Positions 3,215-64,000 of a DNA stretch of 64,000 nucleotides are shown here, in pieces. The notes beneath the pieces were generated by a model that was not told the origin of the DNA, made no database searches, and was given only the letters and a program-made list of their open reading frames with translations. The number at the start of each line of letters is the position of its first letter. Within the stretch, counting starts at the first letter, position 1. Origin of the DNA: Amycolatopsis sp. GM8 (GTDB lineage Bacteria > Actinomycetota > Actinomycetes > Mycobacteriales > Pseudonocardiaceae); the NCBI RefSeq assembly GCF_021653975.1, contig NZ_JAJKFK010000006.1:124001-188000 (forward strand), in the 5' to 3' direction. A program made the position numbers and the translations under genes.

Positions 3215-3637
3215 GTGTTATCCCATCCCGTCCGTTCGGCCGTCGCAGGCACGCTGGTGATAGCCGGCGTACTCGGCGGCACCGCGGGCATCGCGCAGGC
3301 CGACACGCTGCCTGCCACGCCGGGCAAGCCGGTCCTGTGCGCCACAGTGGACGCTCTGCAGGGCGCGCTCTACGACCTTTCGCACGCGACGGACCCCGCG
3401 CTGATCGACGTCGAACTGGGTGCGGTGATCGTGCTGCTGCAGGAGTATCCGCCGGTCCTGCCCAGCGCGCTGGAGCCGACCTACGACTGGCTGGTGTCGA
3501 GGTTCCAGATCCTGCGGAACATGATCGCCACAATGCCGCGGCCGGAGCTGATCCAGCTGCTGAACGATCTCACGGCGAACCTGGCCAACGCCCTCGAGAA
3601 CGTGCCCTGCGCGCCGGAAAACGCGTCGCAGAGCTGA
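3215..3637 (+). CDS. Small secreted protein of unknown function
   Basis: 140 aa from a GTG at 3215 that follows a strong AGGAGG at 3203-3208. The frame is open further upstream but has no ribosome site there. A signal peptide spans about residues 1-28 (hydrophobic VAGTLVIAGVLGGTAGIAQA, cleavage after AQA). The mature part is about 110 aa, mainly helical, with two cysteines (CATVD near the start and PCAPENA near the end) that could form a disulphide. I recognise no family. A bidirectional terminator follows. Confidence 0.72.
   Translation: MLSHPVRSAVAGTLVIAGVLGGTAGIAQADTLPATPGKPVLCATVDALQGALYDLSHATDPALIDVELGAVIVLLQEYPPVLPSALEPTYDWLVSRFQILRNMIATMPRPELIQLLNDLTANLANALENVPCAPENASQS
3341..3352. 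repeat. Imperfect copy of the dispersed GTCCANNNTGGAC palindrome
   Basis: GCCACAGTGGAC within the secreted-protein gene, encoding Ala-Thr-Val-Asp with the non-preferred Thr codon ACA. The right half-site is intact and the left is degenerate. See the finding on this dispersed palindrome. Confidence 0.35.
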
Positions 3638-3644
3638 GTACCGG

Positions 3645-3676
3645 CGGGGCACTGGTGTGGCGGCACCAGTGCCCCG
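3645..3676. terminator. Bidirectional hairpin terminator
   Basis: A perfect 13-bp stem (CGGGGCACTGGTG with its complement) and a 6-base loop lie between the converging secreted-protein gene (stop 3635-3637) and the kinase-like gene (stop 3677-3679). There is no T-tract, as is usual in high-GC actinomycetes. Confidence 0.75.
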
Positions 3677-5383
3677 TCAGGCTTTCAGTCCAATCGCGAC
3701 GGTCGTGCCGACGCCGAACACGCTGGAGAGCCGCAGGGTTCCGCCGTGCGCCTTCACGAGTTCCTCCGCGATCGCGAGACCCAGCCCCGCGCCGGGGTAG
3801 CCGCCGTTCACCACGTTCGTGCCGCGTTCGAACGGGCGTGCCACCCGGTCGAGTTCGCCGGGCGGGATCCCGATTCCCGAGTCGGCGATCTCGACGGTCC
3901 ACCACCCGGCGGCGAAGCCGGTGGTCACCCGGATGCTCCTGCTTTCCCCGTACCGCACGGCGTTTTCGAGTACCTCACCGAGAATCTGGCGCAGCAGCGC
4001 GGAATCGACATGCGCCGTGGGCCCCGGCGTGGCGACCTGCCGGATGGCACCGCTCGCGGTCGCCGCGACCACTTCCGCCACCAGCGAGGGCACATCCACT
4101 TCGGTCCGCCGCACCCGCAGTTCGCCGCGGTCGAGGCGATTGAGCAGCAGCAGATGATCGGCCAGCCGGCGCAACCGCCCGGCGTTGCGGTTGATCACCT
4201 CCGCGGTCGAGCGCTGCTCCATGGCTCCCGCGCCCAGGCGGGTGTCGCCGAGCAGCCCGCCGAGGCTCAGCAGGGCGGTGACCGGAGCGCTGACCTCTTG
4301 TGCGACAGCGGCGAGCGCCTTGCCGTGGCGGGCATCCGGTTCCTCTGCGGCCGGTCGGTCATCGCGTACTTCGAACGTCCACAACGCACCGGTCTCGGTG
4401 CCGGATTCCACGAGGGGCCGGCGTTCGGCGACGAGCGTCCGGCCGGCACCCAGCGTGACGTCGGCCGTGCCCCGGCGCGCAGTCAGCACGGACTGGAACC
4501 GCCGGAAGGCGTCCTGCTGGTCCTGGCATCCGGCGGCGACCGTCCACAGTGCCCGATCCTCACCGGTGCCCGGCCAGCCGGGCGTACCCGTCAGCTGCGC
4601 GAACCGGCGGTTGGCCAGCACCACCGCGCCGTCGTGCCCGATGAGGAACGCGGCGTGGGGGAGACGCGGCAGCAGTTCCCGTACCGCGGCCCGGTCCGCC
4701 CCGGCCTGTGTCACGTCGTGACCGGCGACGATGATCCCGTCGATACCGGGAACCCCGGTCAGGTCGATGAAGAAGGCGTTGACGGTCAGCTCGTCCCCCG
4801 CCCGGCGGCTCAGCCGGAGGTGTGCCCGTGCACTGGTTTTGAGTCCACTGTGGACTTTCGCGAACGCCCGGAGCGCGGTGATCCGGTCGCGCGGGTCGAC
4901 CATCGTCAGCGGGCCGGCGGCCCGGTCCGGGTCCTGGGGCGTCCCGAGTTCCCGCGCCGTGCGGCCGGTGCAGGGAAACCAGCTGTCCCGGGTCAGGCCG
5001 AGCAGCAGCAGCGGTGCCGCGGACACGCTGTCGCGCAGCGCCGGCATGGCCAGCGCGTGCGACAGGAAGACCAGCACCGACTCCAGCCGGTCGCGTTGCG
5101 CGCGCCCGCTCCAGCGCCGGTCTCCCATCCGTGCCAGCTCGACGAGCAGGGCCTCGCGCGCGCCCGCCCGGCCACGGACAGGTGGCAGCGGTAGCAGGAA
5201 AAACCCTTGCCGCGCCTGACTTTCCGGCCGGGGTACCGCGCGTACCGAACGCACCCCGCGGACAGCCCTGAGCAGATCGGCGAACCGCCCGCGATACTGC
5301 TCGCCGTCCGCGCCCGACGAGACCAGGTCGGCCGCGGTCAGCAGAAGCGCTGTCACCTGCCCGGTGCCACCGGAACTCGTCAC
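3677..5383 (-). CDS. PAS-containing histidine-kinase-like protein lacking the phospho-acceptor histidine
   Basis: 568 aa, no membrane segment. The N-terminal half contains PAS-like sensor regions (about 145-225 and 235-340). The C-terminal half has a complete HATPase: N-box N474 (LENAVRYG), G1 box DSGIGIPP (501-508), F-box PFERG (517-521) and G2 box GAGLGLAI (531-538). The dimerisation helix reads AQEVSAPVTALL, where kinases usually have SHELRTPLT, so Q362 stands where the phosphorylated histidine should be. No response regulator is adjacent. It starts at a GTG after GGGAGGGG. It may be an ATP-binding pseudokinase or may phosphorylate elsewhere. Confidence 0.78.
   Translation of the reverse strand: MTSSGGTGQVTALLLTAADLVSSGADGEQYRGRFADLLRAVRGVRSVRAVPRPESQARQGFFLLPLPPVRGRAGAREALLVELARMGDRRWSGRAQRDRLESVLVFLSHALAMPALRDSVSAAPLLLLGLTRDSWFPCTGRTARELGTPQDPDRAAGPLTMVDPRDRITALRAFAKVHSGLKTSARAHLRLSRRAGDELTVNAFFIDLTGVPGIDGIIVAGHDVTQAGADRAAVRELLPRLPHAAFLIGHDGAVVLANRRFAQLTGTPGWPGTGEDRALWTVAAGCQDQQDAFRRFQSVLTARRGTADVTLGAGRTLVAERRPLVESGTETGALWTFEVRDDRPAAEEPDARHGKALAAVAQEVSAPVTALLSLGGLLGDTRLGAGAMEQRSTAEVINRNAGRLRRLADHLLLLNRLDRGELRVRRTEVDVPSLVAEVVAATASGAIRQVATPGPTAHVDSALLRQILGEVLENAVRYGESRSIRVTTGFAAGWWTVEIADSGIGIPPGELDRVARPFERGTNVVNGGYPGAGLGLAIAEELVKAHGGTLRLSSVFGVGTTVAIGLKA
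4843..4855. repeat. Dispersed palindrome GTCCACTGTGGAC (perfect copy)
   Basis: Perfect 5-bp arms with a 3-base centre, inside the kinase-like gene, where it encodes Val-His-Ser-Gly on the minus strand. One of four perfect copies in the window. Confidence 0.6.
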
Positions 5384-5975: not shown

Positions 5976-8900
5976 GTGGCAAGGAAAGTCGCGGCCGTGC
6001 TCGGCTGTCTCGCGCTCGTGGCGGTGTTCGGCGCCGGACCGGTGGCGGCTCAGCCCGCCGGCGGCGCGGTGATCGAGGTCGGGGTAGGCGGCGCCCGCGC
6101 CGAGGCGGGCAACGTCGGTGGGCTCGCCGGTGTCGTGCTCGGCGTGGTTCCCGACGATGGCGACGGCCGGCTCAGCGCCGCCGAGTTCGCGGCGACACCG
6201 GTGGCGAGCTGTGTCTCCGGTGGCGACGGCCAGTGCCTCATCACCGTGACCGAAGTCGGTGTGCGCTACTGGGTCAAGCAGGTCAGTGTCCCCGCCGGCT
6301 GGCAGATGAACACCCAGCTGCGCACCGGGCCGGCCAGTGGCGGCCCGGGATCGACCGCGCGCGACTACGCGTTCCTCACGCCCGAAGTCCAAGCAGGACA
6401 GACCTACACGAGCGGCAGCAACGACGACAACGGTTTCATGAACGGTGCCGACATCGTGAACGGACCGGAGAACGGGTCGACGGGTACCTGGCAACAATCC
6501 CGGGTCAACCCCGAGTTCCCGGCTCGCTGCGGCCTCCGGGTCGCGCTCATCATCGACTGGTCCACCTCGGTCCAGGGCCAGGAGGCCAACCTGCGGGGCG
6601 CGGCCGACGCGCTCGTCAACGGGCTCGCCGGCACCCCGTCCAGCGTCGCGGTGATCAACTTCAGCACCACCTCGCCGATCAGCGCGAAGCCGAATTCGCC
6701 CGATCTGACCCCGGTTTCCACGCCCGCCGGGGTGGACCAGGTGAAGGCGGCCTACCGGGGTTTCAACGCCAGCGGCAGCACCAACTGGGACCAGGCGCTG
6801 CGGGTCGCCTCGGGCTCGGCACCGGACTACGACCTCGCCGTCATGCTCACCGACGGCAACCCGACCTCCCGCGGCGTGCAGGGGCAGGCGAACGGCATCA
6901 CGAACCGGTTCGCCGAGATGGAGGACGCGATCTTCTCGGCGAACGAGCTGAAGGGCCTGGGCACCCGGCTCATCGCGATGGGGGTGGGCACCGGGGTGAG
7001 CGACCCCGCCGCGGCGTTGAACCTGGCCGCGATCTCCGGTGACGTCAAGTACGACGGCACCAACGCGCGGACCGCCGACTACTACCAGAACACCGACTAC
7101 ACCGCGGCGGGCACCGCGCTCCGGCAACTCGCCTTGACCGGCTGCCAGGGCACGCTGAACGTGGTGAAGGCGATCGTGCTGCCCGGCCAGACCATCGCGC
7201 AGGCGCTGCCGGCGGGCCCCGGCTGGGAGCTCACCGCCGCGGGCCCCGGTTTCCCCGGCGAGTCACGCACGACCAGCACCGACCGGACCGGCGCGGTGCA
7301 GTTCGACCTCACCGGCGCCACCGAGCCCCAGCTGGACCTGGACATCGTCGAGACACAGCATCCGGGCTACACCCAGATCCCGGCCAACGACGCCGGGGAT
7401 CCGGCCGCCTGCGTGACGAAATCGCCGACCGGGCAAGAGGTTCAGCTCACCGTGACCGCCTCGCCGGGTGACGCCGCCGGGTTCCATGTGCTGGGCGTGC
7501 CCGCCGCGGAAGCCACCACGTGCACGCTCTACAACCAGGCCCCGGCGGGCACGACCTCGATCACGGTCGGCAAGCAATGGAACATCGACGGGCGGATCGT
7601 CGAGGAGGGCGCGCAACCCGACGGCCTCGAAGCCCAGCTGGGGCTGACCGGGCCGTCCGGCGCCGCGATCACCGATCCGCACTGGGGCCAGGAATATCCC
7701 GAGTATCAGGTGGGCAGCCAGGCCACCATCTCCGAGAGCACCCAGATCGGCCTGCCGGGCTGCACCCAGAGCCAGGGGCCCACGGTGACCGGCGCCGACG
7801 GGGTCGCGGTCCCGCTCGAACGGGAGCACAACGTCACGCTCGACGCCGACCCGGCGCTCAACGTGTTCACCGTGACCAACTATCTCCACTGCCGATCGCA
7901 GCTGACCCTGGTGAAGGAGGTGTCGGGCGGACCGGCGAACCCGGACGACTGGACGCTCACCGCGACCAAACAGGACGGGTCCGCTGTGGACGGACCGTCC
8001 GGCCAGACCGGTGTCACGGCCGATGTCACCCCGGACCGGACCTATGTGCTGTCGGAGTCCGGTGGCGATCCGCGGTACGCCCCGGCCGACAGCCGCACCC
8101 GTGACGCCAGCGGGAACCTGCAGTACCCGGATTCGAGCGGATCCTGGACCTGCACCGAGTCGACCGGCGCGAACTACATCGACGGCATCGAAGGTGCCGT
8201 CCGGGTGCCGCTCGGTCAGCATGTGACCTGCGTGATGACCAACAGCGTCGCCACGCTGGACCTCGTGAAGGCGGTCGCCAACCACAACGGCGGCACCGCC
8301 ACCCCCGCCGACTGGCAGCTCACGCTCACCCCCACCGGCGACAACGTTCCCGCCGGGCTCGGCCCGGTCACCGTGCAGGGCCCCGGAGCGCCGGTGCTGC
8401 TGCGGCCCGGCGTCGTCTACCGGCTGACCGAGTCCGGACCGCCCGGCTATCAGCTCGCGGAGTTCGGGTGTGACCCGTCGTCGGTCACGAGCGGCGCGGA
8501 CGATGTGCTGCTCAGCGCCGACGACGGTCCGGACGCCGGCGTGACGTGCACGGCCACCAACGACGACACACCGGCCACGCTCACCCTGCGCAAGATCGTC
8601 GACCCCGGCGACTCGGGATCCACCGCGGGGCCGGACGACTTCGTGCTCACCGCCCAGGGGCGGGAAGGCGGCGTCTCCGGGCCCGGTGGGGTGCAGGACG
8701 TTCCCGTCGAGCCGGGTTCGTACGACCTGTCCGAAACGGGTCCCGCCGGCTTCGACGCGAGCGCCTGGCAGTGCGAAGGTGGTGCCCTGCAAGGCGATAT
8801 CGTCACCGTTCCACCGAGGTCCGCAGTGATCTGTACCATTACGAACACGGCCCGGACGCCGCACCTGACCCTGGTCAAGCAGCTCGACCCCGCGGGCCCC

Positions 8901-11645: not shown

Positions 11646-12491
11646 TCACTCGACGAGCGTCTGGGTGCCGAGCACGACCGCGAGGGCGAGGCGTTCCGCG
11701 TCCTGGGTGCCGGGTTCCGCGGTGTAGACCATGATCCGCAGGTCGTCGCCGGCGACGATAAGGGCGTCGCAGTCCAGGGTGATGTGGCCCGCCGCTGGGT
11801 GGTCGATCGTCTTGTGGCGGGACGGGTCCGGGAGCGGGGGAGGGGCGTCGGAGTCCCAGAGTTCGGCGAAGCGGGGGCTCGAGTCCGTGAGTTCGGCGAT
11901 GAGCTGCCGCAGTGCGCGGTCGGCGGGGTAGCGGGACGCGGTCAGGCGCAGATCGGCGACGAGCCGCGCCTCGTGGTCGGCCTGCTCCTGTCCGGTGTGG
12001 ACGGTGCGGGTGCCGGGGCCGGCGAGGTTGCGCCAGATGGCGTTGCGCTCGATCCCGCGCCACGACGTGGTCTCGCCCATCAGCGCGTCATAGGGCGCGT
12101 TCGCGTGTACGAGCGTCCAGGTGGCGTCGTAGACGACGACCGGGGTGTGTGCCAGCCGGTCGAGCAGCCGCTGGACGCTCGGGGGGAGGCGCGACGGGAC
12201 GACGTCGAGCCCGGGCGCGGCATGGCCGGCCAGCCGGTACAGCAGGTCACGCTCGGCGTCGGACAGCCGGAGCGCCCGCGCGAGCGCCTCCACCACCTGC
12301 GCCGACGGCGTGGTCGCCCGCCCCTGTTCGAGCCGGGTCAGGTAGTCGGCGGAAATACCGGCGAGCCCGGCCAGTTCCTCGCGGCGCAGCCCGCTGGCCC
12401 GGCGCCGGCGGCCGACCGGCACGCCCACGGTCTCGGGCGCGACCCGGTCCCGCCAGCGGTGCACCGTCCGGCCGAACTCCCACGACTCCAC
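11646..12491 (-). CDS. MmyB-type helix-turn-helix transcriptional regulator
   Basis: 281 aa. An XRE-type helix-turn-helix (about residues 28-85; LRREELAGLAGISADYLTRLEQG) is followed by the MmyB-like ligand-binding domain (about 105-275; VVYDATWTLVHANAPYDALMG and HPAAGHITLDCDAL). The family often controls a neighbouring dehydrogenase, and here an SDR gene is divergently transcribed. An inverted repeat lies in the shared promoter region. The inducing ligand is unknown, possibly a fatty acid or related lipid. Confidence 0.87.
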   Translation of the reverse strand: MESWEFGRTVHRWRDRVAPETVGVPVGRRRRASGLRREELAGLAGISADYLTRLEQGRATTPSAQVVEALARALRLSDAERDLLYRLAGHAAPGLDVVPSRLPPSVQRLLDRLAHTPVVVYDATWTLVHANAPYDALMGETTSWRGIERNAIWRNLAGPGTRTVHTGQEQADHEARLVADLRLTASRYPADRALRQLIAELTDSSPRFAELWDSDAPPPLPDPSRHKTIDHPAAGHITLDCDALIVAGDDLRIMVYTAEPGTQDAERLALAVVLGTQTLVE

Positions 12492-13520: not shown

Positions 13521-14582
13521 CTACACCCCGAGTCTGGTGGCGAGCCGGGCCAGGTGGTAGTCGGCGTCGCCGTAGGCGAGGGCGGCGGCGGTGGCGTGGC
13601 GGAGATAGCGGTGCAGATCGTGTTCGGCCGTGAAGCCGATCGCGCCGTGCACCTGCTGGCCGAGCGCGCAGACACGCTGGTACGCCTCGCTGACGACCGC
13701 TTTCGCGGTGCTCACCTCGGCGCCGGCGTCGGAACCGGTGCCCAGCCGCCACGCCGCCTCGTAGGCGGCGAACCTGGCGCCCAGCACGTCGATCGCCATG
13801 TTCGCGCAGTGATGCTGCACCGCCTGGAAAGCGCCGATCGGGCTGTCGAACTGGCGGCGCTGCCCGGCGTACTCGACGGTCACGTCGAGCACGGCCTGGG
13901 CGCCGCCAACCATCTCCGCGCACGTGAGTACCGTCGCGTACGCCGTCATGGAGTCCACAGTGGATTCCCCGACGGGGAGAAACCGTTCCAGTGCAAGGGG
14001 AACATTGTCCAACGTCACCGTGTACACGGGCTCGTTGCCGACCGTGTCGAGCCGCTTGCCGGTGACGCCCGGCGCGGCGGCGTCGACGAGGGCGGCGGCC
14101 AGTCCGTCCGGCGTCGCGGCGACCACCAGCAGGTCGGCTACCTCCAGGGCGAACGGCACGAACAGCGCCGAACCATCCACTGTGTACCCATCGCCGGACG
14201 GCGTCGCGGTGAGATCGGATCCGGCGGCGCCCCAATGCCCGCCCGGTTCGGCGCGCGCGTAGCCGATCGCCCGGCCGCCCACCGCCGGCAGCCACGCCTG
14301 CTTCTGCTGCGCGGTACCGGATCCGGAGATGGTCAGCGCGCCGGCCACGGTCGGCACGAACGGGGTCGGCACGCCAGCACGGCCCAGCTCCTCGGCGATC
14401 AGGCACGCGTCGAGGAAGTCCGCGCCGACACCGCCGTAGGACTCGGGCACGGCCAGCCCGACCCAGCCCAGCTCGACGATCTCCTTCCACAGCCCGGTTC
14501 CGTCCACACCGGAGCGCCCGGCCAGGAACTCCCGCGCGGTGGACTGGACCAACTGCTGGTCCTCGGTCAGAGTGAGGTCCAC
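13521..14582 (-). CDS. Acyl-CoA dehydrogenase, short subunit-like
   Basis: 353 aa. Acyl-CoA dehydrogenase fold (VGLAVPESYGGVGADF; QRRQFDSPIGAFQAVQH; QVHGAIGFTAEHDLHRYLR). It lacks the TEIQ-type catalytic glutamate that its larger paralogue in this operon carries, and is shorter. This matches the partner subunit of heterotetrameric dehydrogenases used for bulky substrates such as steroid side chains in actinomycetes. The start GTG (14582-14580) shares one base with the TAG stop of the VOC gene (TAGTG), so translation is probably coupled. Confidence 0.85.
   Translation of the reverse strand: MDLTLTEDQQLVQSTAREFLAGRSGVDGTGLWKEIVELGWVGLAVPESYGGVGADFLDACLIAEELGRAGVPTPFVPTVAGALTISGSGTAQQKQAWLPAVGGRAIGYARAEPGGHWGAAGSDLTATPSGDGYTVDGSALFVPFALEVADLLVVAATPDGLAAALVDAAAPGVTGKRLDTVGNEPVYTVTLDNVPLALERFLPVGESTVDSMTAYATVLTCAEMVGGAQAVLDVTVEYAGQRRQFDSPIGAFQAVQHHCANMAIDVLGARFAAYEAAWRLGTGSDAGAEVSTAKAVVSEAYQRVCALGQQVHGAIGFTAEHDLHRYLRHATAAALAYGDADYHLARLATRLGV
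13953..13965. repeat. Imperfect copy of the dispersed palindrome (one mismatch)
   Basis: GTCCACAGTGGAT in the acyl-CoA dehydrogenase gene. On the minus strand it encodes Ser-Thr-Val-Asp, using ACT for Thr. Confidence 0.45.
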
Positions 14583-15517
14583 TAGGCGCCCACCGGGATC
14601 TTGTCGGACCGGACCCACACGCCCGGTTTCTCCTCCCAGAACAGCTGCACCAGCACCCCGCCGGTCTGCTTCGGGTGCACGAAGGTGTGCTTCCAGGCCG
14701 CGCCGTCGGTGACACCCTCTTCGTCGTCGAACGGCTCGATATCGTGCGCGGCCAGCGCGGCGCGGGCCGCGTCCCAGTCGGCGACCTGGAACGTCACGTG
14801 GTGCACCGACGTCCCGTTCTTCGCCAGGAACCGGTCGATGAACGAGTCCTCACCACGCGGCATGATGATCTCCCAGCACACCGAGGATCCCGGGATGTTC
14901 AGCACCAGGTCGGCCATGTCGGGCAGCTCGTCGATGGGGGTCTTCCAGATCGGCAGGAACCCGGCCAGGTCGGCGTACCACTGGGCGAGGGCCTCGCGGT
15001 CGGGGTAGGCCTGGCAGATGTGGTCCATGGTCACGATCCCGACCGCCGGACCATCCACTTCGGACAGATCGTCGGTGGGTGAGGAGTTCTCGTCACCGGC
15101 GAGCGCCAGGCTGCCGGGTCCACGCAGCCGGAACCGCACACCGGGCCCGTGCTCGGGCGGGGTCAGCGACGCCTCGATCCAGCCATGCCCCGAGTCCACA
15201 TAGGACAGGCCGCGCTTGTCCAGCTCGGCGCGTGCCGCGTCCAGGTCGGGCACCTCGGCGCCGACGTGGTGGAACCCCGGCCTGCCCTTCTGCTCATCCA
15301 ATGTGGACTGCAGCGGCGAGTTGTGGCCGGACGGGGCGAGCACCACCCAGTCCTGGCCCCAGCTGCCGGGCACGGCGAGCCGGACGCCCTTGACACCCTG
15401 CTCCGGGTTGTCCCAGCGGCGGGTCGGGCGGAACCCGAAGACGGTGCGTAGCAACGAAACCTGGCCGTCCAGGTCGGGCGTCAGCTGTGCGACGTGGTCG
15501 ATCCGGTAGATCCGCAT
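14582..15517 (-). CDS. Two-domain VOC (glyoxalase/bleomycin-resistance fold) protein
   Basis: 311 aa with two vicinal-oxygen-chelate domains (about 1-130 and 160-295). The first begins YRIDHVAQLTPDL and has GFHHVGAEVPD; the second has VTMDHICQAYPD and VHHVTFQVADWDAA. The VOC fold includes dioxygenases, epimerases and lyases. HPPD-like or methylmalonyl-CoA-epimerase-like activity is possible. Its place among acyl-CoA enzymes suggests action on an intermediate of the same pathway. Confidence 0.83.
   Translation of the reverse strand: MRIYRIDHVAQLTPDLDGQVSLLRTVFGFRPTRRWDNPEQGVKGVRLAVPGSWGQDWVVLAPSGHNSPLQSTLDEQKGRPGFHHVGAEVPDLDAARAELDKRGLSYVDSGHGWIEASLTPPEHGPGVRFRLRGPGSLALAGDENSSPTDDLSEVDGPAVGIVTMDHICQAYPDREALAQWYADLAGFLPIWKTPIDELPDMADLVLNIPGSSVCWEIIMPRGEDSFIDRFLAKNGTSVHHVTFQVADWDAARAALAAHDIEPFDDEEGVTDGAAWKHTFVHPKQTGGVLVQLFWEEKPGVWVRSDKIPVGA
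15296..15308. repeat. Imperfect copy of the dispersed palindrome (one mismatch)
   Basis: ATCCAATGTGGAC in the VOC gene. The minus strand encodes Ser-Thr-Leu-Asp with the codons ACA and TTG, both non-preferred in this genome. Confidence 0.4.
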
Positions 15518-17533: not shown

Positions 17534-19126
17534 TCACGCCGTCCTTTCCGTGCGACTGTCCGCCTCGCGATCCCAGGTCGCCTCCGTCAGCCCGTGGTCG
17601 CCCTGCTCCTTCAACCGGTACTTGGCGACCTTGTCCGTCGGGGTCCTGGGCAGCGCGTCCACGTACTCGATGTATCTCGGCACCATGAACCGCGGCAACC
17701 GGTCCTCGCAGAACGCGACCAGTTCCTCGGGGTCCACTGTGGACCCCGGCCGCAGCACGACGGTCAGCTTGACGTCCTCTTCCTCCAATTCGGACGGTAC
17801 GCCGGTGGCCGCGCACTCGACCACGTCCGGGTGCAGGTTCACCTCGCACTCGAGATCGAACGCGGAGATGTTCTCGCCGCGGCGGCGGATCGCGTCCTTC
17901 ATCCGGTCGAGGAAGAAGTAGTAGCCGTCCTCGTCGCGGTAGCCTCGGTCCCCGGTGTGGTACCAGAGGTTCCGGAACGCCTCGGCGGTCGCGTCGGGCG
18001 CGCCGTAGTAGCCGGTGGTGATCACGAACGGCTGCTTGGGCCGGACGACCAGCTCACCGGGTTCGCCGGGGCCGAGCAGATGATCGTGGGCGTCCACCAC
18101 GCCGACGTCGAACCGTCGCTCGTTGGGCGTGCCGCACGAGCCGAGCCGCCACTCGCCGTACGGGCTGCCGGTGACGATCCCGGCCTCGGTGCTGGTGTAC
18201 GTCTCCGCCGAGCGCACCCCGAACCGCGCCAGCAATGGTTCGTCCAAAATGGACTTTCCCATGTAGAACGTCTCCAGTGGATGGTCCTTGTCCCGCGGCG
18301 TCTCCGGTTTGTTCAGCAGGATCGGGATCATCGAGAACACGCTCATGCACACCTTCGCGTCGAACGCGCGCACGTCGTCCCAGAACCGCGAGGCGTGGAA
18401 CCGGTCGGTCACCGCGATCGCGCCGCCGCCAACCATCGCCGAGAACACGCCGTCCCACAGGCCGGCCGCGTGGAACAGCGGCAGCGGGCAGTAGATCGTC
18501 TTGCCCCACCGGTCCAGGTAGTCGAGCGAGTCGATGGCGCAGGTCAGCGCGAGCGCGTGGGAGCACATCGCGCCCTTCGACGGGCCGGTGGTGCCCGAGG
18601 TGTACATGATCGCCAGCAGATCGGAAAACGCCACGGCGCGGCTGACCGGCTCAGCGCCGTGCGCCAGCAGTTCGGAGAACGGCAGTACCGCCTTCCCGAT
18701 CGGCCGCTCCAGTGCGCCCCGGACGATCACCCGGCCCAGCCCCGGGAGGCGGTGCGCCAGCGGCGTGAGCCGGTCGGCGTAAGCGGCGTCGATGATCATC
18801 GCCGAGGAGTCGGAGCTGGCCAGCACGTGTCCCAGCAGTTCGCCCTGGTGCGCGGTGTTCACCGGTACCGCCACGGCGCCGAGCCGGGCCAGCGCGAAGA
18901 TCGTGAACAGGAAGTCGGGGCAGTTCGGCAGCATGACCGCGACGTGCTGGCCGCTGCCGACACCCTGCGCGGCGAGGCCGCCTGCCACCCGGTCGGTCAT
19001 CGAGTCGACGTCGCCGTAGCTCAGCTCGCCCTCGTGGAACTTGAGGAACGTCTCGGTACGGTGCGTGATCGCCCGGTGCCGGAGCACGTCGCCGACGACC
19101 AGGTCATCCAGTTTCTCGCTGCGCAT
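17534..19126 (-). CDS. AMP-dependent acyl-CoA synthetase/ligase
   Basis: 530 aa. ATP/AMP signature YTSGTTGPSKGA, YTSTEAG, the hinge region RRGENISAFDLE, and the C-terminal catalytic lysine in TPTDKVAKYRL. It would activate a carboxylic acid as its CoA thioester, the first step of the pathway encoded by this operon. ATG 19126 is preferred over GTG 19132 because GGAGGG is 5 bases from the ATG. It is the promoter-proximal gene. Two palindromes lie upstream (19149-19160 and 19192-19209). Confidence 0.9.
   Translation of the reverse strand: MRSEKLDDLVVGDVLRHRAITHRTETFLKFHEGELSYGDVDSMTDRVAGGLAAQGVGSGQHVAVMLPNCPDFLFTIFALARLGAVAVPVNTAHQGELLGHVLASSDSSAMIIDAAYADRLTPLAHRLPGLGRVIVRGALERPIGKAVLPFSELLAHGAEPVSRAVAFSDLLAIMYTSGTTGPSKGAMCSHALALTCAIDSLDYLDRWGKTIYCPLPLFHAAGLWDGVFSAMVGGGAIAVTDRFHASRFWDDVRAFDAKVCMSVFSMIPILLNKPETPRDKDHPLETFYMGKSILDEPLLARFGVRSAETYTSTEAGIVTGSPYGEWRLGSCGTPNERRFDVGVVDAHDHLLGPGEPGELVVRPKQPFVITTGYYGAPDATAEAFRNLWYHTGDRGYRDEDGYYFFLDRMKDAIRRRGENISAFDLECEVNLHPDVVECAATGVPSELEEEDVKLTVVLRPGSTVDPEELVAFCEDRLPRFMVPRYIEYVDALPRTPTDKVAKYRLKEQGDHGLTEATWDREADSRTERTA
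17732..17744. repeat. Dispersed palindrome GTCCACTGTGGAC (perfect copy)
   Basis: Inside the acyl-CoA ligase gene. On the minus strand it encodes Ser-Thr-Val-Asp with ACA for Thr. Confidence 0.6.
18242..18254. repeat. Dispersed palindrome GTCCAAAATGGAC (perfect arms)
   Basis: Inside the acyl-CoA ligase gene. The minus strand encodes Ser-Ile-Leu-Asp with ATT and TTG, both non-preferred here, so four A/T bases sit in an otherwise GC-rich stretch. Confidence 0.55.
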
Positions 19127-44382: not shown

Positions 44383-45648
44383 ATGCTTGGCGTCGAGCGG
44401 CTGTCGTGCCGGCTGTGCGGAGACGCCGACCTCGTCAGCGTGGCCGACCTCGGGGCGAGCCCGCCGTGCGAGTCCTTTCTCGCGGCCGCGGAATTGGACG
44501 CGCCCGAATTGACGTATCCGCTGCATTTGCGATTGTGCGCGAATTGTTTTCTCGTGCAACTGCCGCCGTTGCTCGATCCCGACGAGACATTCACCGAGTA
44601 CGCGTATTTCTCGTCATTCTCCAACTCCTGGCTGAAGCACGCCGGGGCATTCGTCACGACGTCCGTCGACCGGCTCGGGCTCGGCGACTCGTCGTTCGTC
44701 GTGGAGGTCGCCAGCAACGACGGGTACCTGCTTCGCAACGTCGTCGGGCGCGGGCTGCGCTGCCTGGGCATCGAGCCGTCGGTCAACGTCGGGCAGGCTG
44801 CGCGCGACGCCGGGGTGCCGACGCTGACGGCGTTCCTCGACGCGGAGACCGGCGCGGCGGTCCGGCGCGAGCACGGGCCCGCGGATCTGGTGGTGGCCAA
44901 CAACGTCTACGCGCACATCCCGGACATCCTGGGCTTCACGCGCGGCCTGAGGGAGCTCGTCGCGGACGACGGCTGGCTCTCCATCGAGGTGCAGCACCTG
45001 CTGACCATGATCGAGCTGACCCAGTACGACACGATCTACCACGAGCATTTCCAGTACTACACGGTGGAAACCGCGCAGCGGGCGCTGAAGACCGCCGGGC
45101 TCGCGGTGGTCGACGTCGAGAAGCTGCCGACGCACGGCGGGTCCATCCGGCTGTGGGCGCGCCCCGAGGCCGTCGCCGGTGAGCCGAGCGAGCGGATGCG
45201 CGCGGTGCTCGCCGAGGAGAAGGCCGCCGGGCTGCACGAGCTGAGCGGGTACGAGGACTTCGCCGCCCGCGTCGACCGGGTCCGGCTCGACCTGCTCGAC
45301 TTCCTGGTCCAGACCAAATGCCGCGGCGAGCGGGTTGTCGGCTATGGCGCGCCGGGCAAGGGAAACACGTTGCTCAACCACTGCGGTATCCGGCCGGACC
45401 TGCTGCCGTACACAGTGGACCGCAACCCCTACAAGCACGGCCGGTACACGCCGGGCACCCGGATCCCGATCGTGGCGCCCGAGCGGATCGCCGAGGACCG
45501 GCCCGACTACGTGCTCGTGCTGCCGTGGAACCTGCGGACCGAGCTGAGCGCGCAGCTCGCGTACATCGCGGACTGGGGCGGCCGGCTCGTGTTCCCCATC
45601 CCGCGGCTCGAGATCGTGTCCCCCGACAGAGAGGCGAGACAAGCATGA
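44383..45648 (+). CDS. Sugar C-methyltransferase-like SAM-dependent enzyme (TylCIII/NovU type)
   Basis: 421 aa from ATG 44383 (ATG 44326 is a possible earlier start, but the 19 extra codons look non-coding). Zinc module CRLCGDAD and LCANCFLVQL, SAM motif VVEVASNDGYLLRNV, active region QHLLTMIELTQYDTIYHEHFQYY, and C-terminal domain VVGYGAPGKGNTLLNHCGI. It should methylate a carbon of a keto-sugar nucleotide, giving a branched sugar. A TATAGT hexamer at 44316-44321 inside a short inverted repeat (44306-44324) may be a local promoter. The next gene overlaps by 4 bases. Confidence 0.85.
   Translation: MLGVERLSCRLCGDADLVSVADLGASPPCESFLAAAELDAPELTYPLHLRLCANCFLVQLPPLLDPDETFTEYAYFSSFSNSWLKHAGAFVTTSVDRLGLGDSSFVVEVASNDGYLLRNVVGRGLRCLGIEPSVNVGQAARDAGVPTLTAFLDAETGAAVRREHGPADLVVANNVYAHIPDILGFTRGLRELVADDGWLSIEVQHLLTMIELTQYDTIYHEHFQYYTVETAQRALKTAGLAVVDVEKLPTHGGSIRLWARPEAVAGEPSERMRAVLAEEKAAGLHELSGYEDFAARVDRVRLDLLDFLVQTKCRGERVVGYGAPGKGNTLLNHCGIRPDLLPYTVDRNPYKHGRYTPGTRIPIVAPERIAEDRPDYVLVLPWNLRTELSAQLAYIADWGGRLVFPIPRLEIVSPDREARQA
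45408..45420. repeat. Imperfect copy of the dispersed palindrome (one mismatch)
   Basis: GTACACAGTGGAC in the C-methyltransferase gene, encoding Tyr-Thr-Val-Asp with ACA for Thr. Confidence 0.4.
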
Positions 45649-48425: not shown

Positions 48426-50593
48426 CCGACACCGATCCCGCCACCACGGTGGTGATCTGCGCGTACACCGAGCGGCGCTGGGACGACCTGGTCGCCGCCG
48501 TGGCGGGAGTGCGGGCGCAGACCGCGCCGGTGGCCGAGATCATCCTTGTGATCGACCACAACCCGGAGCTCGAACAGCGCGCCGCGGCCGGGTTCTCCGG
48601 CGTGCTCGTGGTGCCGAACACGGGACGGCGCGGGCTTTCCGGAGCGCGCAACACCGCGATCGAACTCGCCAAGGGCGACGTGCTCGCGTTCCTCGACGAC
48701 GACGCCGTGCCCGAACCGGACTGGCTCGAGCAGTTGCTCGACGGCTACCGGGACCCGCGGGTGCTCGCCGTCGGCGGGGCCGCGCGCCCGGTGTGGCCGG
48801 ACGGCGAGCGCTCGCGGCTGCTGCCCGCGCGCGGGGCGGGCACCGGCGAGCTGGACTGGGTCGTCGGCTGCACCTACACCGGCCAGCCGGTGACCGACAC
48901 CCCGGTGCGGAACCTGATGGGCTGCAACATGTCCTTCCGGCGTGAGGCGTTCCAGCTGGCCGGGCTGTTCACCGAGGATCTCGGCCGGGTCGGGCGCACG
49001 CCGCTGGGCTGCGAGGAGACCGAGCTGTGCATCCGGCTGGAGCAGGCCTCGCCGGGCGCGCTGATCGTGTTCCGGCCCTCGTCGGTGGTGCGCCACCGGG
49101 TCACGCCCGACCGGCTGACCTGGCGCTACCTGCGTCGTCGCGGCTGGGGTGAGGGGATCTCGAAGGCGCTGGTCTCGCGGTCGGTCGGGGCGGACGCGGC
49201 GCTGTCCACCGAACGCGATTACCTCCGCCGGGTCATCCCGGCCGCCGTGCTGCGTGAGTTCGGGAACTCGTTGCGCGGCAAGGGTTTCTCGGGGTTGGTC
49301 GCGCTGTTCGTCGTGGTGGGCGCGACCGCGGCCGGGTACGCGCGCGGCAAGCTGACCCGGCAGCGGCTGCGGATCCGGGTCAGCACCCCGAAACTCGTGC
49401 ACGGCCCGATCCATGTGGCCACTGTGGACATTCGGGATATGCCCGCGCGGCTGCAGGTCCCGTCGCGCGCGGTCGGGCACTATCGCGCGGCGCAGGTACT
49501 GGTGCGCGACGGCGAGCGCACGCTGGACGTGGTGCTGCTGCCGGTGCACCGCGGCGCGGTCCGGCTCGACCTGATCGGCATCGGAACCCCCGCGGTGGCA
49601 CCGAAACCGGAGTTCGAACGGCCGCTGATCAGCGTCGTGATCCCGACCGCGCACCGCAAGGACCAGGCCGTCGAAAGCGTGCGCGCCGCGCTCGCCGCGG
49701 GCTATCCCCGGCTGGAAATCCTGGTGGTGGACAACTTCCCGGCCGAGCCGGACGGGGACGACCGGCTGCGCGGCGAGGTCGAGCGGCTCGGCGCGCGCTA
49801 CCTGGTCGAGCCGCGCAAGGGCGTGAGCACCGCGCGCAACACCGGTGCGGTGGCGAGCACCGGCGAGTTCATCGCGTTCCTCGACGAGAACATCAGCGTC
49901 GAACCCGGCTGGTTCGACGCGGTCGCCGAGGAGTTCGTCGCAGACCCGGACGTCGGCTGCGTGACCGCGATGGTGCTGCCGGCGAGCCTGGAGACCGACG
50001 CCGAGGTGCTCTTCGAGCGGCTCAAGGGCTACAGCCACACCGTCCGCCGCCAGCGGCTGGACCGCGAGACCGTGCGCGAGGACCCGCTGTACCCGCTGTC
50101 GATGGCGCGCTACGGCCCCGGCAGCTGCACGACGTGGCGCCGCTCGACGTTCGAGGGACTGCGCGGGTTCGACCCGTTGCTGGGCGCGGGCACGCCGGCG
50201 ATGTCGGGGGAGGACCTGGACCTGTTCGTCCGCCTCGCCCGCGCCCGCGGCACGGTCGTCTACACCCCGCACGCGGTCGCCCGGCACACGCACCGCGCGG
50301 ACTGGCTGGAGCTGCGCGAGCAGATGCGCGGCTACGGCGTCGGGCTCTCCGCGATGCTGCTGCTGTCGGTGGTGCGACGGCCGATCGGGGTGTTCTCGAT
50401 CATCCGCCGCGTCCCGCGCGGGATGGCGCGGCTCGCGTCGCGGACACCCGAGCTGCCGCTGTCGGATCGTGCGGCCCGTTCGCGGCTGCGCCAGCTGCGC
50501 CGCGACGAGCGGTACGGCATGCTCGACGGCCCGCTCGCACTGGCGAGGGCATGGAAACGGCACCGGCTGGATGCACGGTCACGCCCCCGGTAG
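48422..50593 (+). CDS. Large protein with two GT2 glycosyltransferase domains
   Basis: 723 aa. Domain 1 (about 8-290) has TTVVICAYTERRWDDL and FLDDDAVPEPDW; domain 2 (about 400-690) has LISVVIPTAHRKDQAV and FLDENISVEPGWF. They are joined by a helical segment and a short beta-rich stretch. The metal-binding DxD of domain 1 is DDD, while domain 2 has DEN, so its metal site is altered. It could add two sugars in turn, or one domain may be non-catalytic. ATG 48422 overlaps the previous stop. Confidence 0.85.
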   Translation: MTDTDPATTVVICAYTERRWDDLVAAVAGVRAQTAPVAEIILVIDHNPELEQRAAAGFSGVLVVPNTGRRGLSGARNTAIELAKGDVLAFLDDDAVPEPDWLEQLLDGYRDPRVLAVGGAARPVWPDGERSRLLPARGAGTGELDWVVGCTYTGQPVTDTPVRNLMGCNMSFRREAFQLAGLFTEDLGRVGRTPLGCEETELCIRLEQASPGALIVFRPSSVVRHRVTPDRLTWRYLRRRGWGEGISKALVSRSVGADAALSTERDYLRRVIPAAVLREFGNSLRGKGFSGLVALFVVVGATAAGYARGKLTRQRLRIRVSTPKLVHGPIHVATVDIRDMPARLQVPSRAVGHYRAAQVLVRDGERTLDVVLLPVHRGAVRLDLIGIGTPAVAPKPEFERPLISVVIPTAHRKDQAVESVRAALAAGYPRLEILVVDNFPAEPDGDDRLRGEVERLGARYLVEPRKGVSTARNTGAVASTGEFIAFLDENISVEPGWFDAVAEEFVADPDVGCVTAMVLPASLETDAEVLFERLKGYSHTVRRQRLDRETVREDPLYPLSMARYGPGSCTTWRRSTFEGLRGFDPLLGAGTPAMSGEDLDLFVRLARARGTVVYTPHAVARHTHRADWLELREQMRGYGVGLSAMLLLSVVRRPIGVFSIIRRVPRGMARLASRTPELPLSDRAARSRLRQLRRDERYGMLDGPLALARAWKRHRLDARSRPR
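49417..49429. repeat. Imperfect copy of the dispersed palindrome (one mismatch)
   Basis: GGCCACTGTGGAC inside the double-GT2 gene, encoding Ala-Thr-Val-Asp with ACT for Thr. Confidence 0.4.
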
Positions 50594-58975: not shown

Positions 58976-61021
58976 GTGAACCTACCGTCGTCCGTCGCAG
59001 CCGCCCCCGCTTCAAGCGTGGTGGTACCGGCCGGGACCACGGCGGGGACGGCGGTCCGCGAGGCGGGCCTGCCGACGAAGGGCGCGGACGCGATCGTGGT
59101 CGTCCGCGACGCCGGCGGCCGGCTGCGCGACCTGGCCTGGGCGCCTGAAGCGGAAACCGCGGTCGAGGCCGTCGCGGCGAACACCGACGACGGCCGCAGC
59201 GTCATCCGGCACTCCGCCGCGCACGTGCTAGCCCAGGCTGTCCAGCAGCAGTTCCCGAAGGCCAGGCTCGGTATCGGCCCGCCGGTCAAGGACGGCTTCT
59301 ACTACGACTTCCAGGTCGACACCCCGTTCACCCCCGAGGACCTGCAGGCGCTGGAGAAGCGCATGAAGCAGATCATCAAGGGCTCGCAGCAGTTCTCCCG
59401 CCGCGTCGTCGAGTCGGTCGAGGCCGCGCGCGAGGAGCTGGCGGACGAGCCGTTCAAGCTGGAGCTGGTGGACCTCAAGTCCGAAGTGGACACTGTGGAC
59501 ACATCAGAGGTGATGGAGGTCGACAGTAATCCCGCTGGCGAGCTGACCATCTACGACAACCTCGACCCGCGCACCAAGGAACGGGTCTGGAGCGACCTGT
59601 GCCGCGGCCCGCACGTGCCGACCACCAAGTACATCCCGGCGTTCAAGCTCACCCGGGTCGCCGCCGCGTACTGGCGCGGGGACGAGAAGAACCCGCAGCT
59701 GCAACGGATCTACGGCACCGCATGGGAGTCCCAGGAGGCCCTGGACGGGTACCTGGAGATGCTCGCCGAGGCCGAGCGGCGTGACCACCGCAAGCTCGGC
59801 GCGGAGCTGGACCTGTTCTCCTTCCCCGAGGAGCTGGGCTCCGGCCTGCCGGTGTTCCACCCCCGTGGCGGCATCATCCGCCGTGAGCTGGAGGCGTACT
59901 CGCGGCAGAAGCACGAGGAGCACGGCTACGAGTTCGTGAACACCCCGCACGTCACCAAGGGCGGGCTGTTCGAGACGTCGGGCCACCTGCCCTACTACGC
60001 CGAGAGCATGTTCCCCCCGATGCATCTCGAGGGCTCGGACTACTACGTCAAGTCGATGAACTGCCCGATGCACAACCTGATCTTCCGCTCGCGCGGGCGG
60101 TCCTACCGCGAGCTGCCGCTGCGGCTGTTCGAGTTCGGATCGGTGTACCGGTACGAGAAGTCGGGCGTGGTGCACGGGCTCACCCGGGTGCGCGGGATGA
60201 CCCAGGACGACTCGCACATCTACTGCACCAAGGAGCAGATGCCCGGCGAGCTGACCTCGCTGCTGACCTTCGTGCTGGACCTGTTGCGCGACTACGGTCT
60301 CGACGACTTCTACCTCGAACTGTCCACTCGGGACGATTCGCCGAAGTTCATCGGCGAGGACGCCGAGTGGGAAGAGGCCACCGAGGCGCTGCGGACGGCC
60401 GCCGAGTCCTCCGGGCTGCACCTGGTGCCGGACCCGGGTGGTGCCGCGTTCTACGGGCCGAAGATCTCCGTGCAGGCCAAGGACGCGATCGGCCGCACCT
60501 GGCAGATGTCGACCATCCAGGTCGACTTCAACCAGCCCAAGCGGTTCGAGCTGAGCTACCAGGCGGCCGACGGCACCCGGCAGCAGCCGGTGATGATCCA
60601 CCGCGCGCTGTTCGGGTCGATCGAGCGGTTCTTCGGCGTGCTCACCGAGCACTACGCGGGCGCCTTCCCGGCCTGGCTCGCGCCGGTGCAGGTGGTCGGC
60701 ATCCCGATCGCCGACGAGCACGTCGATCACCTGCGGGCGATCGAGAAAGCCTTGCGGGCCAAGGGGATCCGCGTCGAGGTGGACACCAGCGACGACCGGA
60801 TGCAGAAGAAGATCCGCACCCACACCACGCAGAAGGTGCCGTTCCTGCTGCTGGCCGGCGCCAAGGACGCCGAGGCGGGCGCGGTGTCGTTCCGGTTCCG
60901 CGACGGCGGCCAGATCAACGCGGTACCGGTGGCCGACGCGGTCGAGGCGATCGCCGGCTGGATCGCGCGCCGGGAGAACAGCTCGCCGACCGCCGAGGCG
61001 CTCGGGGCGGTTCTGGGGTGA
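58976..61021 (+). CDS. thrS: Threonyl-tRNA synthetase
   Basis: 681 aa. A short TGS-like N-terminal region, the editing domain with [12 protein letters not shown], and class II motifs: [10 protein letters not shown] (zinc cysteine), [13 protein letters not shown] and [16 protein letters not shown], then an anticodon-binding domain. GTG 58976 follows GAGGAG. The HIT gene overlaps by 4 bases. No T-box structure was seen in the short 74-base upstream gap. Confidence 0.97.
59488..59500. repeat. Imperfect copy of the dispersed palindrome (two mismatches)
   Basis: GGACACTGTGGAC inside thrS, encoding Asp-Thr-Val-Asp with ACT for Thr. Confidence 0.3.
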
Positions 61022-61560: not shown

Positions 61561-61572
61561 CCGGCAGACGCC

Positions 61573-61606: not shown

Positions 61607-61622
61607 TCGCTCGTAGGCGGGT

Positions 61623-62165: not shown

Positions 62166-62197
62166 GCCGGGACTCCTTTGCTTAGCCATGCTATCTA

Positions 62198-62241
62198 TTG
62201 AGCTCTCAACCGGACTCTACCAAATCTAATTGAGGGCTCAA
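62198..62241. promoter_or_regulatory. Two MarR-type operators between yceI and marR
   Basis: TTGAGCTCTCAA (62198-62209) and TTGAGGGCTCAA (62230-62241), both TTGAG-N2-CTCAA, with centres 32 bp apart. Each is followed by CC. They cover the shared promoter region. Confidence 0.75.
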
Positions 62242-62261
62242 CCAGAGGTAGAATTGTCCGC

Positions 62262-62771: not shown

Positions 62772-62860
62772 ACGGCGCGCCGGGCCACCGGTCGCTGGTC
62801 AGGGGTGGTTACGCTGCGCTGGAACGATCCCCATCCCGCACCCAGGTGATATTGACAGCG

Positions 62861-62893
62861 ATGAGCAAGCCCGCACCGTCTGTACAGATCTGA
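62861..62893 (+). CDS. Possible 10-codon leader ORF before pgsA
   Basis: ATG AGC AAG through a TGA at 62891-62893 encodes MSKPAPSVQI. The stop overlaps the pgsA start (TGATG). A -10-like GATATT (62848-62853) with an upstream TG would start transcription at about 62861, so the mini-ORF could be leaderless and pass ribosomes to pgsA, which lacks its own ribosome site. This may be chance. Confidence 0.35.
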   Translation: MSKPAPSVQI

Positions 62894-63504
62894 TGCTGAA
62901 CATCTTCGCGCGCGCCTCGGTGTCCCGCGCCCTCGACCCGCTCGCCAAGGTGCTGCTGCGCGCCGGCGTCACCCCGAACGTCATGACGGTGCTGGGCACG
63001 GTCGGCGCCATCGCGTCCGCCATCGGGTTCTTCCCGGCCGGGCTGCTGCTGTGGGGCACGTTCACGGTGTGGGGTTTCGCGATGCTGGACCTGGTCGACG
63101 GCGCGATCGCGCGCGCCCGCGGGCACGGCACCCCGTTCGGCGCCGCCCTCGACGCGACCTGCGACCGGCTGGTCGACGGCGTGCTGTTCGCGTGCATCGC
63201 CTGGTGGTGCTTCGTCGACTGGGGCAACCTGCGTGCCGCCGGCGCGACGCTCGGCTGTCTCGTGCTCGGCCAGGTCATCTCGTACGTCAAGGCACGCGCC
63301 GAGGCGGTCGGGCTGGCGGCAGACGGCGGGCTGATCGAGCGCGCCGAGCGACTCATCATCGCGCTCGTCGGGACCGGGCTGCAGGGCTTCGGCGTGCCGT
63401 ACCTGGTCGAGGGCACCCAGTGGCTGCTCCTGGTGCTGTCCGCGGTGACCCTGGTGCAGCGCCTGCTCTCGCTCGCCGCGTCCGCCCGGGGGGCGAATCC
63501 GTGA
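62893..63504 (+). CDS. pgsA1: CDP-alcohol phosphatidyltransferase, phosphatidylinositol-phosphate synthase-like
   Basis: 203 aa integral membrane enzyme. The motif DLVDGAIARARGHG with FGAALDATCDR gives the complete D-x2-D-G-x2-A-R-x8-G-x3-D-x3-D pattern. In actinobacteria the gene after thrS-HIT makes phosphatidylinositol phosphate, the base of phosphatidylinositol mannosides. No ribosome site precedes ATG 62893; see the leader ORF. The acyltransferase gene overlaps by 4 bases. Confidence 0.92.
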   Translation: MLNIFARASVSRALDPLAKVLLRAGVTPNVMTVLGTVGAIASAIGFFPAGLLLWGTFTVWGFAMLDLVDGAIARARGHGTPFGAALDATCDRLVDGVLFACIAWWCFVDWGNLRAAGATLGCLVLGQVISYVKARAEAVGLAADGGLIERAERLIIALVGTGLQGFGVPYLVEGTQWLLLVLSAVTLVQRLLSLAASARGANP

Positions 63505-64000
63505 GTAGCCTGTCCCAGCACGCGAGCGATCTCGCTTACGCCGCGGGCTGGCGGCTGGTCCGGCGGCTGCCCGCCGGGCTGGCCACCGCCGCGTTCGGGC
63601 TGGCGGCGGACTTCGCCACCCGCCGCCGCGGTCCCGGCGTGCTGCAGCTGCGCCGCAATCTCGCGCGGGTGGTGCCGCAGGCGGGCGCGCAGGAACTGGA
63701 CGAGCTGACCCGGCAGGCCATGCGCTCCTACGCCCGCTACTGGCAGGAAGCGTTCCGGCTGCCCACAATGGACGTGAATTCCGTGCGCGGCCGGTTCCAG
63801 AGCGCGCTCACCGGTATGGAGAACCTCGACGCCGCGCTGGGGGAGGGCAACGGTGCCGTGGTCGTGTTGCCGCACATGGGAAACTGGGATGTCGCGGGCC
63901 TGTGGCTGGTCGGCTACGCCGGCTCGTTCACGACCGTGGTGGAGCGCCTGCGACCGGACTCGGTGTACCGCCGGTTCGTGGCGTTCCGCGAATCGCTCGG
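63501..64000 (+). CDS. Phosphatidylinositol mannoside acyltransferase, 5' part
   Basis: 166 residues are visible, cut by the window edge. Lipid A biosynthesis acyltransferase-like family (PatA/Rv2611c type). The N-terminal region (LAYAAGWRLVRRLPAGLATAAF) is followed by the catalytic H-x4-D motif HMGNWD. It would acylate the mannose of PIM. GTG 63501 overlaps the pgsA stop. A pimA mannosyltransferase gene is expected next. Confidence 0.9.
   Translation, partial: MSSLSQHASDLAYAAGWRLVRRLPAGLATAAFGLAADFATRRRGPGVLQLRRNLARVVPQAGAQELDELTRQAMRSYARYWQEAFRLPTMDVNSVRGRFQSALTGMENLDAALGEGNGAVVVLPHMGNWDVAGLWLVGYAGSFTTVVERLRPDSVYRRFVAFRESL
63761..63773. repeat. Imperfect copy of the dispersed palindrome (one mismatch)
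   Basis: GCCCACAATGGAC inside the PIM acyltransferase gene, encoding Pro-Thr-Met-Asp with ACA for Thr. Confidence 0.35.

Follow-up and report, generated by a model that had tools for sequence, protein, structure and literature searches.

The palindrome and its copies in the window

A 13-bp palindrome recurs in unrelated genes of the window, the 64-kb stretch of DNA analyzed here as a whole. Searching with a loose pattern, GTCCANNNTGGAC, that allows any center base, we found 4 perfect and 17 one-mismatch copies, and this total of 21 compares with a mean of 2.63 in 100 dinucleotide shuffles, the largest of which held 7. Predicted genes contain all 21. The center base is G/C in 6 copies, which are probably chance occurrences, and A/T in the following 15, for which gene resemblances were judged by eye and the state of the site in the nearest relative, G588, is added where compared.

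4843..4855: perfect copy, GTCCACTGTGGAC, A/T center, in a minus-strand gene (frame GTC CAC AGT GGA C) with the look of a sensor histidine kinase
17732..17744: perfect copy, GTCCACTGTGGAC, encoding S-T-V-D in a gene with the look of an acyl-CoA ligase; G588 has GTCCAGCGCCGCC
18242..18254: perfect copy, GTCCAAAATGGAC, in the same acyl-CoA-ligase-like gene as 17732; one mismatch in G588
26189..26201: perfect copy, GTCCACAGTGGAC, encoding S-T-V-D in a gene with the look of an MFS transporter
7979..7991: one-mismatch copy, A/T center
11990..12002: one-mismatch copy, A/T center
13953..13965: one-mismatch copy, A/T center, encoding S-T-V-D; G588 has GTCCACGGTGGAC, with perfect arms and a G center
15194..15206: one-mismatch copy, A/T center; two mismatches in G588
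15296..15308: one-mismatch copy, A/T center; still one-mismatch in G588
40591..40603: one-mismatch copy, A/T center
45408..45420: one-mismatch copy, A/T center
49417..49429: one-mismatch copy, A/T center
59479..59491: one-mismatch copy, A/T center, in thrS
60322..60334: one-mismatch copy, A/T center, in thrS
63761..63773: one-mismatch copy, A/T center

The nearest relatives of the window thrS are those of Amycolatopsis alkalitolerans (88%) and of Prauserella flavalba and A. deserti (86%), and on this placement we take the family of the window genome (G000; 8.16 Mb in 22 contigs) to be the Pseudonocardiaceae. A sequence-only reading of the same DNA had located the four perfect copies (4843, 17732, 18242, and 26189) and seven one-mismatch copies (7979, 13953, 15296, 40591, 45408, 49417, and 63761) correctly; 10 more one-mismatch copies exist. 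Its chance figure of 0.05 perfect copies per 64 kb underestimates the expectation for the written pattern, as synonymous codon shuffling gave ~10.3 copies per 880 kb with any center and 1.0 with an A/T center (~0.75 and ~0.07 per 64 kb, respectively). It had also described the palindrome as over-represented inside genes, which holds for the window in that every copy is coding but does not amount to a coding preference: coding DNA makes up a fraction of 0.90 and contains 13 of 15 perfect copies (264 kb of G000) and 60 of 70 one-mismatch copies. On the same comparison of the perfect copies, we looked for a promoter or intergenic preference and found none.

Excess over codon-aware chance and effect on proteins

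Across the whole of G000, the loose pattern gave 410 perfect copies and the reversed-pattern control gave 3. This control flatters the loose-pattern result; the codon-shuffle rate scaled to G000 predicts ~86 copies, over which 410 is still a clear excess. A refined pattern, GTCCAYWRTGGAC, gave 246 copies, with 0 for its control. In 343 genes of G000 (323 kb), we counted 25 perfect copies, compared with 3.3 after gene-wise synonymous codon shuffling, a procedure that preserves both the protein and codon usage; for A/T-centered copies the corresponding figures were 24 and 0.44 (largest of 100 shuffles, 3). An A/T center was present in 29 of the 30 perfect copies in 359 kb of G000.

We applied the same null, with 20 shuffles, to coding sequence of G000, G034, G068, and G055 totaling 880 kb (G108 and a 240-kb stretch of G000 were left out, and because G034 and G068 are related, some sites were counted twice). 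There were 60 perfect and 147 one-mismatch A/T-centered copies against 1.0 and 10.7 expected, whereas G/C-centered copies numbered 7 and 59 against 9.35 and 76. Since the G/C-centered copies lie near codon expectation, they behave as chance and serve as a built-in negative control, indicating that the center base is read; part of the loose-pattern counts is therefore a codon artifact. The prediction that genome counts would exceed a codon-aware expectation was thus borne out by both sets of shuffles, which support selection at the DNA level.

With each perfect copy oriented so that its center is A, C precedes the center in 131 of 145 and G follows it in 107 of 145 (relatives included), giving GTCCACARTGGAC. 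The mismatch in 298 A/T-centered one-mismatch copies (relatives included) falls at position 5 or 9 in 178 and at position 3, 4, 10, or 11 in 30; the CC/GG core and the A/T center are strict, and positions 5 and 9 are loose. A scan of gapped 5-mer palindromes (N0 to N8) placed GTCCAN3TGGAC at the top in G000, G055, and G034 plus G068 (narrowly, 23.6 versus 22.8 for the next) and outside the top seven in samples of Nocardia, Rhodococcus/Gordonia, the Micromonospora group, and Pseudonocardia. Selection acts on the word GTCCANWNTGGAC, which most often takes the form GTCCACARTGGAC.

One reading frame, xxG TCC ANN NTG GAC, is used by 22 of the 25 coding copies in G000. The tetrapeptide STVD occurs 16 times in the 343 genes, against 1.8 expected from residue frequencies, and is spelled TCC ACT/ACA GTG GAC in 13 of these 16. 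ACA and ACT together account for 393 of 6,419 Thr codons (6%), yet one of them is found in 15 of the 16 STVD tetrapeptides, as anticipated by the suggestion that the copies force non-preferred codons. The DNA word overrides proteins, imposing rare codons and amino acids on them, and selection acts on the word itself, in unrelated genes, on either strand, and in DNA that is coding or not. In the usual frame, xxG TCC ACW GTG GAC, the center is the only non-preferred base, the remainder being GC-rich.

Conservation, turnover, and distribution

Evolution tends to keep the copies between close species. We compared two pairs of genomes in both directions, G055 with G108 (96% identical over 150 kb) and G034 with G068 (92% identical over 130 kb). 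All eight aligned perfect A/T-centered copies of G055 were perfect in both genomes, one with its center switched (T/A), and when perfect and one-mismatch copies were taken together, 2 of 287 motif positions had changed versus 59 of 930 flanking positions; from G108 to G055, the changes were 0 of 278 versus 58 of 900. From G034 to G068, all six perfect copies were kept (4 of 231 motif versus 118 of 750 flanking positions changed), and in the reverse direction 6 of 10 were still perfect, one of the ten being without an A/T center (9 of 262 versus 131 of 840). Center changes from G055 to G108 and from G034 to G068 were exclusively between A and T. Thr codons ACA and ACT stayed rare codons at 9/9 and 8/8 motif sites in these two comparisons, versus 32/56 and 43/96 elsewhere, and were kept at 10/10 and 7/7 motif sites versus 34/56 and 48/100 elsewhere in the reverse directions. 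The conservation at orthologous synonymous sites that the sequence-only reading had called for is therefore seen in both pairs: DNA-level selection here writes STVD into many unrelated proteins and keeps rare codons between close species.

Turnover of copies is also real. The two perfect window copies that aligned to G588 (89% identity) are both imperfect there, with one mismatch at 18242 and five changes at 17732; at 17732, 5 of 13 motif bases differ versus 4 of 24 flanking bases, and by our own reading S-T-V has become A-A-L. In G594 (74% identity), we saw no intact copy at any of the five window sites compared.

Within the same family, the loose pattern was present in 150 of 150 genomes, with 2 to 1,018 copies (reversed control, 0 to 18). 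Because the loose pattern includes codon-chance copies, only high counts signal the trait; 28 of the 46 genera sampled include a genome with at least 100 loose copies, and genus g42 has only 2 to 11. We therefore list refined-pattern counts, for which controls were 0 or 1, for the 41 genomes to which named loci gave access (L042 was left out).

Herbihabitans: 790 refined copies, the highest in the 41-genome set
Streptoalloteichus: 264 refined copies
Amycolatopsis (11 genomes): 14 to 252 refined copies
Actinokineospora: 77 and 170 refined copies
Umezawaea: 160 refined copies
Lentzea: 136 refined copies
Actinosynnema: 84 refined copies
Kibdelosporangium: 62 and 81 refined copies
Saccharothrix: 74 refined copies
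Prauserella: 18 and 66 refined copies
Saccharomonospora: 7 and 24 refined copies
Saccharopolyspora: 0 to 22 refined copies
Pseudonocardia: 0 to 3 refined copies
Actinopolyspora: 1 refined copy
Actinoalloteichus caeruleus: 1 refined copy
Nocardia, Rhodococcus, Segniliparus, Geodermatophilus, and Micromonospora (one genome each): 0 refined copies
Phytohabitans flavus: 27 refined copies

The refined density in positive genomes is ~2 to 120 copies per Mb. Among 396 genomes across the phylum, the maximum was 3 refined copies once two family members with 246 and 31 are set apart. Of 121 genomes sampled from the Phytohabitans family, the Micromonosporaceae, 32 had at least 10 refined copies (up to 521), four had 3 to 8, and the others had 0 to 2. 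The word was thus rightly called lineage specific, though two families are spanned, and the genes of many soil actinobacteria carry it well beyond chance. It is common in Amycolatopsis, Saccharothrix, Lentzea, and Herbihabitans and nearly absent from Pseudonocardia and Micromonospora, which belong to the family of those genera or to a sister one, and this on/off pattern between genera suggests the gain or loss of one putative reader gene. Such a contrast could make the putative reader protein findable by gene co-occurrence and pull-down, and once the reader is identified, the purpose of dispersed iterated palindromes would become directly testable in an antibiotic-relevant group.

An ori- or ter-related spacing had also been suggested as a check, and two chromosomes on which dnaA was placed gave no ori- or ter-limited pattern. 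All 27 listed copies of Phytohabitans G189 (dnaA at 7.50 Mb) are distributed all round the chromosome, as are the copies of Kibdelosporangium banguiense G172 (dnaA at 2.31 Mb) among the 50 of 62 listed. Assuming equal replichores, 8 copies in G189 and 8 in G172 (among the 50 of 62 listed) lie no farther than 1.5 Mb from the position opposite dnaA, and 4 and 17, respectively (the latter again among those 50), no farther than 1.5 Mb from dnaA itself. An organizer of the Noc, SlmA, or MatP type, limited to ori or ter, was not seen on either map.

Sampling of G055 in 20-kb pieces, 40 spaced and 10 adjoining, gave, by megabase, 2.2 to 5.5 copies per piece (A/T center, at most one mismatch), with no simple trend along the coordinate from 0.05 to 6.6 of 9.17 Mb (origin not placed). 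The copies are clustered (variance/mean of 2.2 per 20 kb), with few around thrS. Three dense samples contain, by eye, accessory-looking genes (catabolic, NRPS, and secreted). The 240-kb stretch of G000, at 66.8% GC, is probably foreign and has 0 perfect copies, with near-copies at 34 versus 9 for the control; its predicted coding fraction is 56%, from a model trained elsewhere. Given the uneven spread (spacing CV up to 2.1) and this stretch without perfect copies, a fixed density is not enforced, and the unevenness may reflect where proteins tolerate S-T-V-D.

Some phages carry the word as well. The tailed-phage contigs G597, G626, and G604 have 14 copies in 68.6 kb, 8 in 44 kb, and 7 in 49 kb, respectively, with controls of 0. 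The 36 virus records listed were picked for having a copy, and 14 of them have a single one. Because viral scans by DNA pattern select for the motif, sets picked by homology are the fairer test, and their outcome was mixed. Ten loci with portal relatives of G597, its own contig excluded, held 1 perfect and 22 near-copies versus 1 and 7 for the control; L572 contributed 7 of the near-copies and L563 contributed 8, the latter locus also holding 1 perfect copy (versus 0 perfect and 1 near-copy for its control). There was barely any enrichment in the 47 loci with relatives of the G604 terminase once the contig of G604 itself was removed (3 perfect and 71 near-copies versus 0 and 50), and phiAsp2 (50 kb; named after Actinoplanes) showed no enrichment, with 0 perfect and 2 A/T-centered near-copies.

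Possible roles of the word

We give about an even chance to the proposal that GTCCANWNTGGAC, mostly in the form GTCCACARTGGAC, is a dispersed site recognized by a single putative symmetric (dimeric) DNA-binding or DNA-modifying protein. It may also correspond to one of the roles put forward in the sequence-only reading, a chromosome-organizing site, a methylation site, or a lineage-specific regulatory mark. Tolerance that varies base by base, an obligatory A/T center, and symmetry together point to a DNA-reading protein dimer. Because the copies lie in unrelated genes, turn over, show no promoter preference, and are carried by some phages, any benefit would be collective, drawn from many sites (nucleoid-wide binding, self-marking, or modification), and not a matter of local gene control. 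More tentatively, we consider it possible that the word is a genus-by-genus on/off “self” code, in which one putative protein reads GTCCACARTGGAC chromosome-wide in filamentous actinobacteria, hundreds of sites and the proteins containing them are rewritten when it is gained or lost, and phages of these hosts imitate the code, whether to be taken for self or to be packaged as host DNA is.

Six spellings of the word turned up no report of it as a bacterial element, the three papers matching one spelling being unrelated by title, and topic literature, judged by title, gave none either. HIP1, the best-known comparable element, has mostly coding copies, at a density above that of the present word. 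The nearest known kind is the cyanobacterial highly iterated palindrome, and the word here is an actinobacterial 13-bp variant of that kind: iterated genome-wide, gained and lost, mostly in coding DNA and in unrelated genes, and over-represented relative to a codon-aware null (on sampled stretches; the whole genome was set against the reversed pattern). HIP1 and other cyanobacterial palindromes are described as short, genome-wide, gained or lost between strains, and unexplained in function (Elhai 2015, PMC4390886). The actinobacterial word differs from HIP1 (GCGATCGC) in sequence, in its 5-3-5 layout, and in its required A/T center, and it is sparser and also present in some phages; it is not HIP1 proper.

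Other dispersed elements resemble it in part. DNA uptake sequences can shape proteins, and matS, the MatP site, is a 13-bp 5-3-5 palindrome (GTGACRNYGTCAC) like the present word, which has another sequence and hundreds of copies and is not ter limited (in G189 and among the 50 of 62 copies listed in G172). Noc and SlmA sites are likewise dispersed palindromic protein sites, often within genes, but no empty terminus is seen here (same two maps). The actinobacterial DnaA box (TTGTCCACA) has GTCCACA in common with one strand; we rejected it, as TT is present in only 6 of 145 copies and 11 dnaA loci of ~3 kb contain 1 copy, with no clustering. An RNA hairpin was also rejected: paired, stem-preserving, A/T-centered variants number 5 in all (A5G pair, 2 versus 1.4; A5T pair, 2 versus 0.1), and positions 3 and 4 seldom show the C-to-T changes that wobble pairing would permit. 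Haemophilus and Neisseria uptake sequences share with our word many short dispersed copies (PMC7811141), but our word is palindromic.

The best-surviving alternative, which we nonetheless think rather unlikely, is a HIP1-like element paired with an orphan DNA methyltransferase, the sites being kept by methylation or spread by modification-linked repair or recombination. Ten specified bases plus an A/T center would make a long methyltransferase site, and the graded tolerance of mismatches fits binding better. The style of the word is HIP1-like, being palindromic, iterated, and gained or lost between strains, and in three strains HIP words are reported to switch together with methyltransferases (Elhai 2015, PMC4390886).

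A self-recognition or drive element, that is, a DNA uptake, recombination (Chi-like), or anti-degradation signal whose carrier DNA is taken up, recombined, or spared, would account for the equal use of coding and noncoding DNA, the species turnover at site 17732, the carriage by phages, the lack of perfect copies in the 240-kb low-GC stretch, and the overriding of protein sequence. Near-copies persist in that stretch, however, purifying selection at single copies exceeds what drive alone needs, and a symmetric word needs a dimer, so that this explanation seems to us quite improbable. The uptake and Chi words known to us are asymmetric.

That the copies are ordinary operators of one transcription regulator is very improbable. 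The case for it comes from G433, a genome without the trait, whose only two refined copies, separated by 33 bp, both lie within the divergent promoter of a PadR-type gene; against it stand up to 790 copies per genome and, in G000, the absence of any intergenic preference, which makes an ordinary promoter operator unlikely. We also rejected the PadR regulator as the reader, because a close homologue (E ≤ 1e-28) occurs in trait-positive and trait-negative genomes alike (33 of the 36 searched), and of the three genomes that lack it, two, G154 and G637, are trait positive. The closest nonself homologues belong to trait-negative Rhodococcus, Nocardia, and Pseudonocardia genomes; in this search G001 and G165 gave identical match coordinates and look like one genome. 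No regulatory site common to low-copy genomes emerged from a comparison of the G000 site loci with 17 loci of low-copy or trait-free genomes and 7 named ones. Two Amycolatopsis (L020 and L025) had the sole place shared in the site-locus comparison, upstream of one gene.

Finally, an artifact of composition or codon usage, for which it might be said that the frame xxG TCC ANN NTG GAC consists of preferred codons and that G/C-centered copies are about as frequent as codon usage predicts, is refuted for A/T-centered copies by their 60-fold excess over the codon null and, with the conservation of orthologous copies, retains virtually no probability.

Intergenic and phage copies of the palindrome

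In G433, a genome without the genome-wide enrichment, the refined, A/T-centred pattern was absent apart from one intergenic pair of copies, a putative operator that looks like a genuine local one. Pairs were also present in three phage contigs.

L097:9025-9070 (G433 contig C3), two perfect copies at a 33-bp spacing, flanked by divergent PadR and DUF1707 genes
L225:3036-3061, phage contig, two copies in direct tandem
L302:3662-3687, phage contig, two copies in direct tandem
L339:3405-3430, phage contig, two copies in direct tandem

Each tandem pair lies immediately upstream of a small gene that is followed by a terminase-like gene, and the phage contig of G598 (59% GC) carries five copies inside 2.1 kb (L267:12143-14264). 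The word GTCCACTGTGGACT recurs two to four times in each member of a 45% GC phage group (L245, L259, L283, L288, and L294), with spacings that recur near 520 and 600 bases; these repeats are probably an unrelated feature.

Core regions and a low-GC stretch

Copies may be scarce in core regions. The thrS gene (window 58976-61021) contains only two one-mismatch copies, and among 80 thrS loci from relatives (L016-L095, ~20 kb each), 10 carried a perfect loose-pattern copy, many of the loci without one coming from trait-free genera. No perfect copies were found in 240 kb of contig C1 (176001-416000; L498-L509) of G000, the genome of the window. This stretch, which has a GC content of 66.8% and a predicted coding fraction of just 56% (with a gene model trained elsewhere), is probably a genomic island. 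A transposase-like gene was noted by eye within it.

A depleted G/C-centred variant

In coding DNA of four trait genomes, G/C-centred C4-to-G variants were depleted (1 observed versus 13.65 expected), possibly as a result of codon-pair bias.
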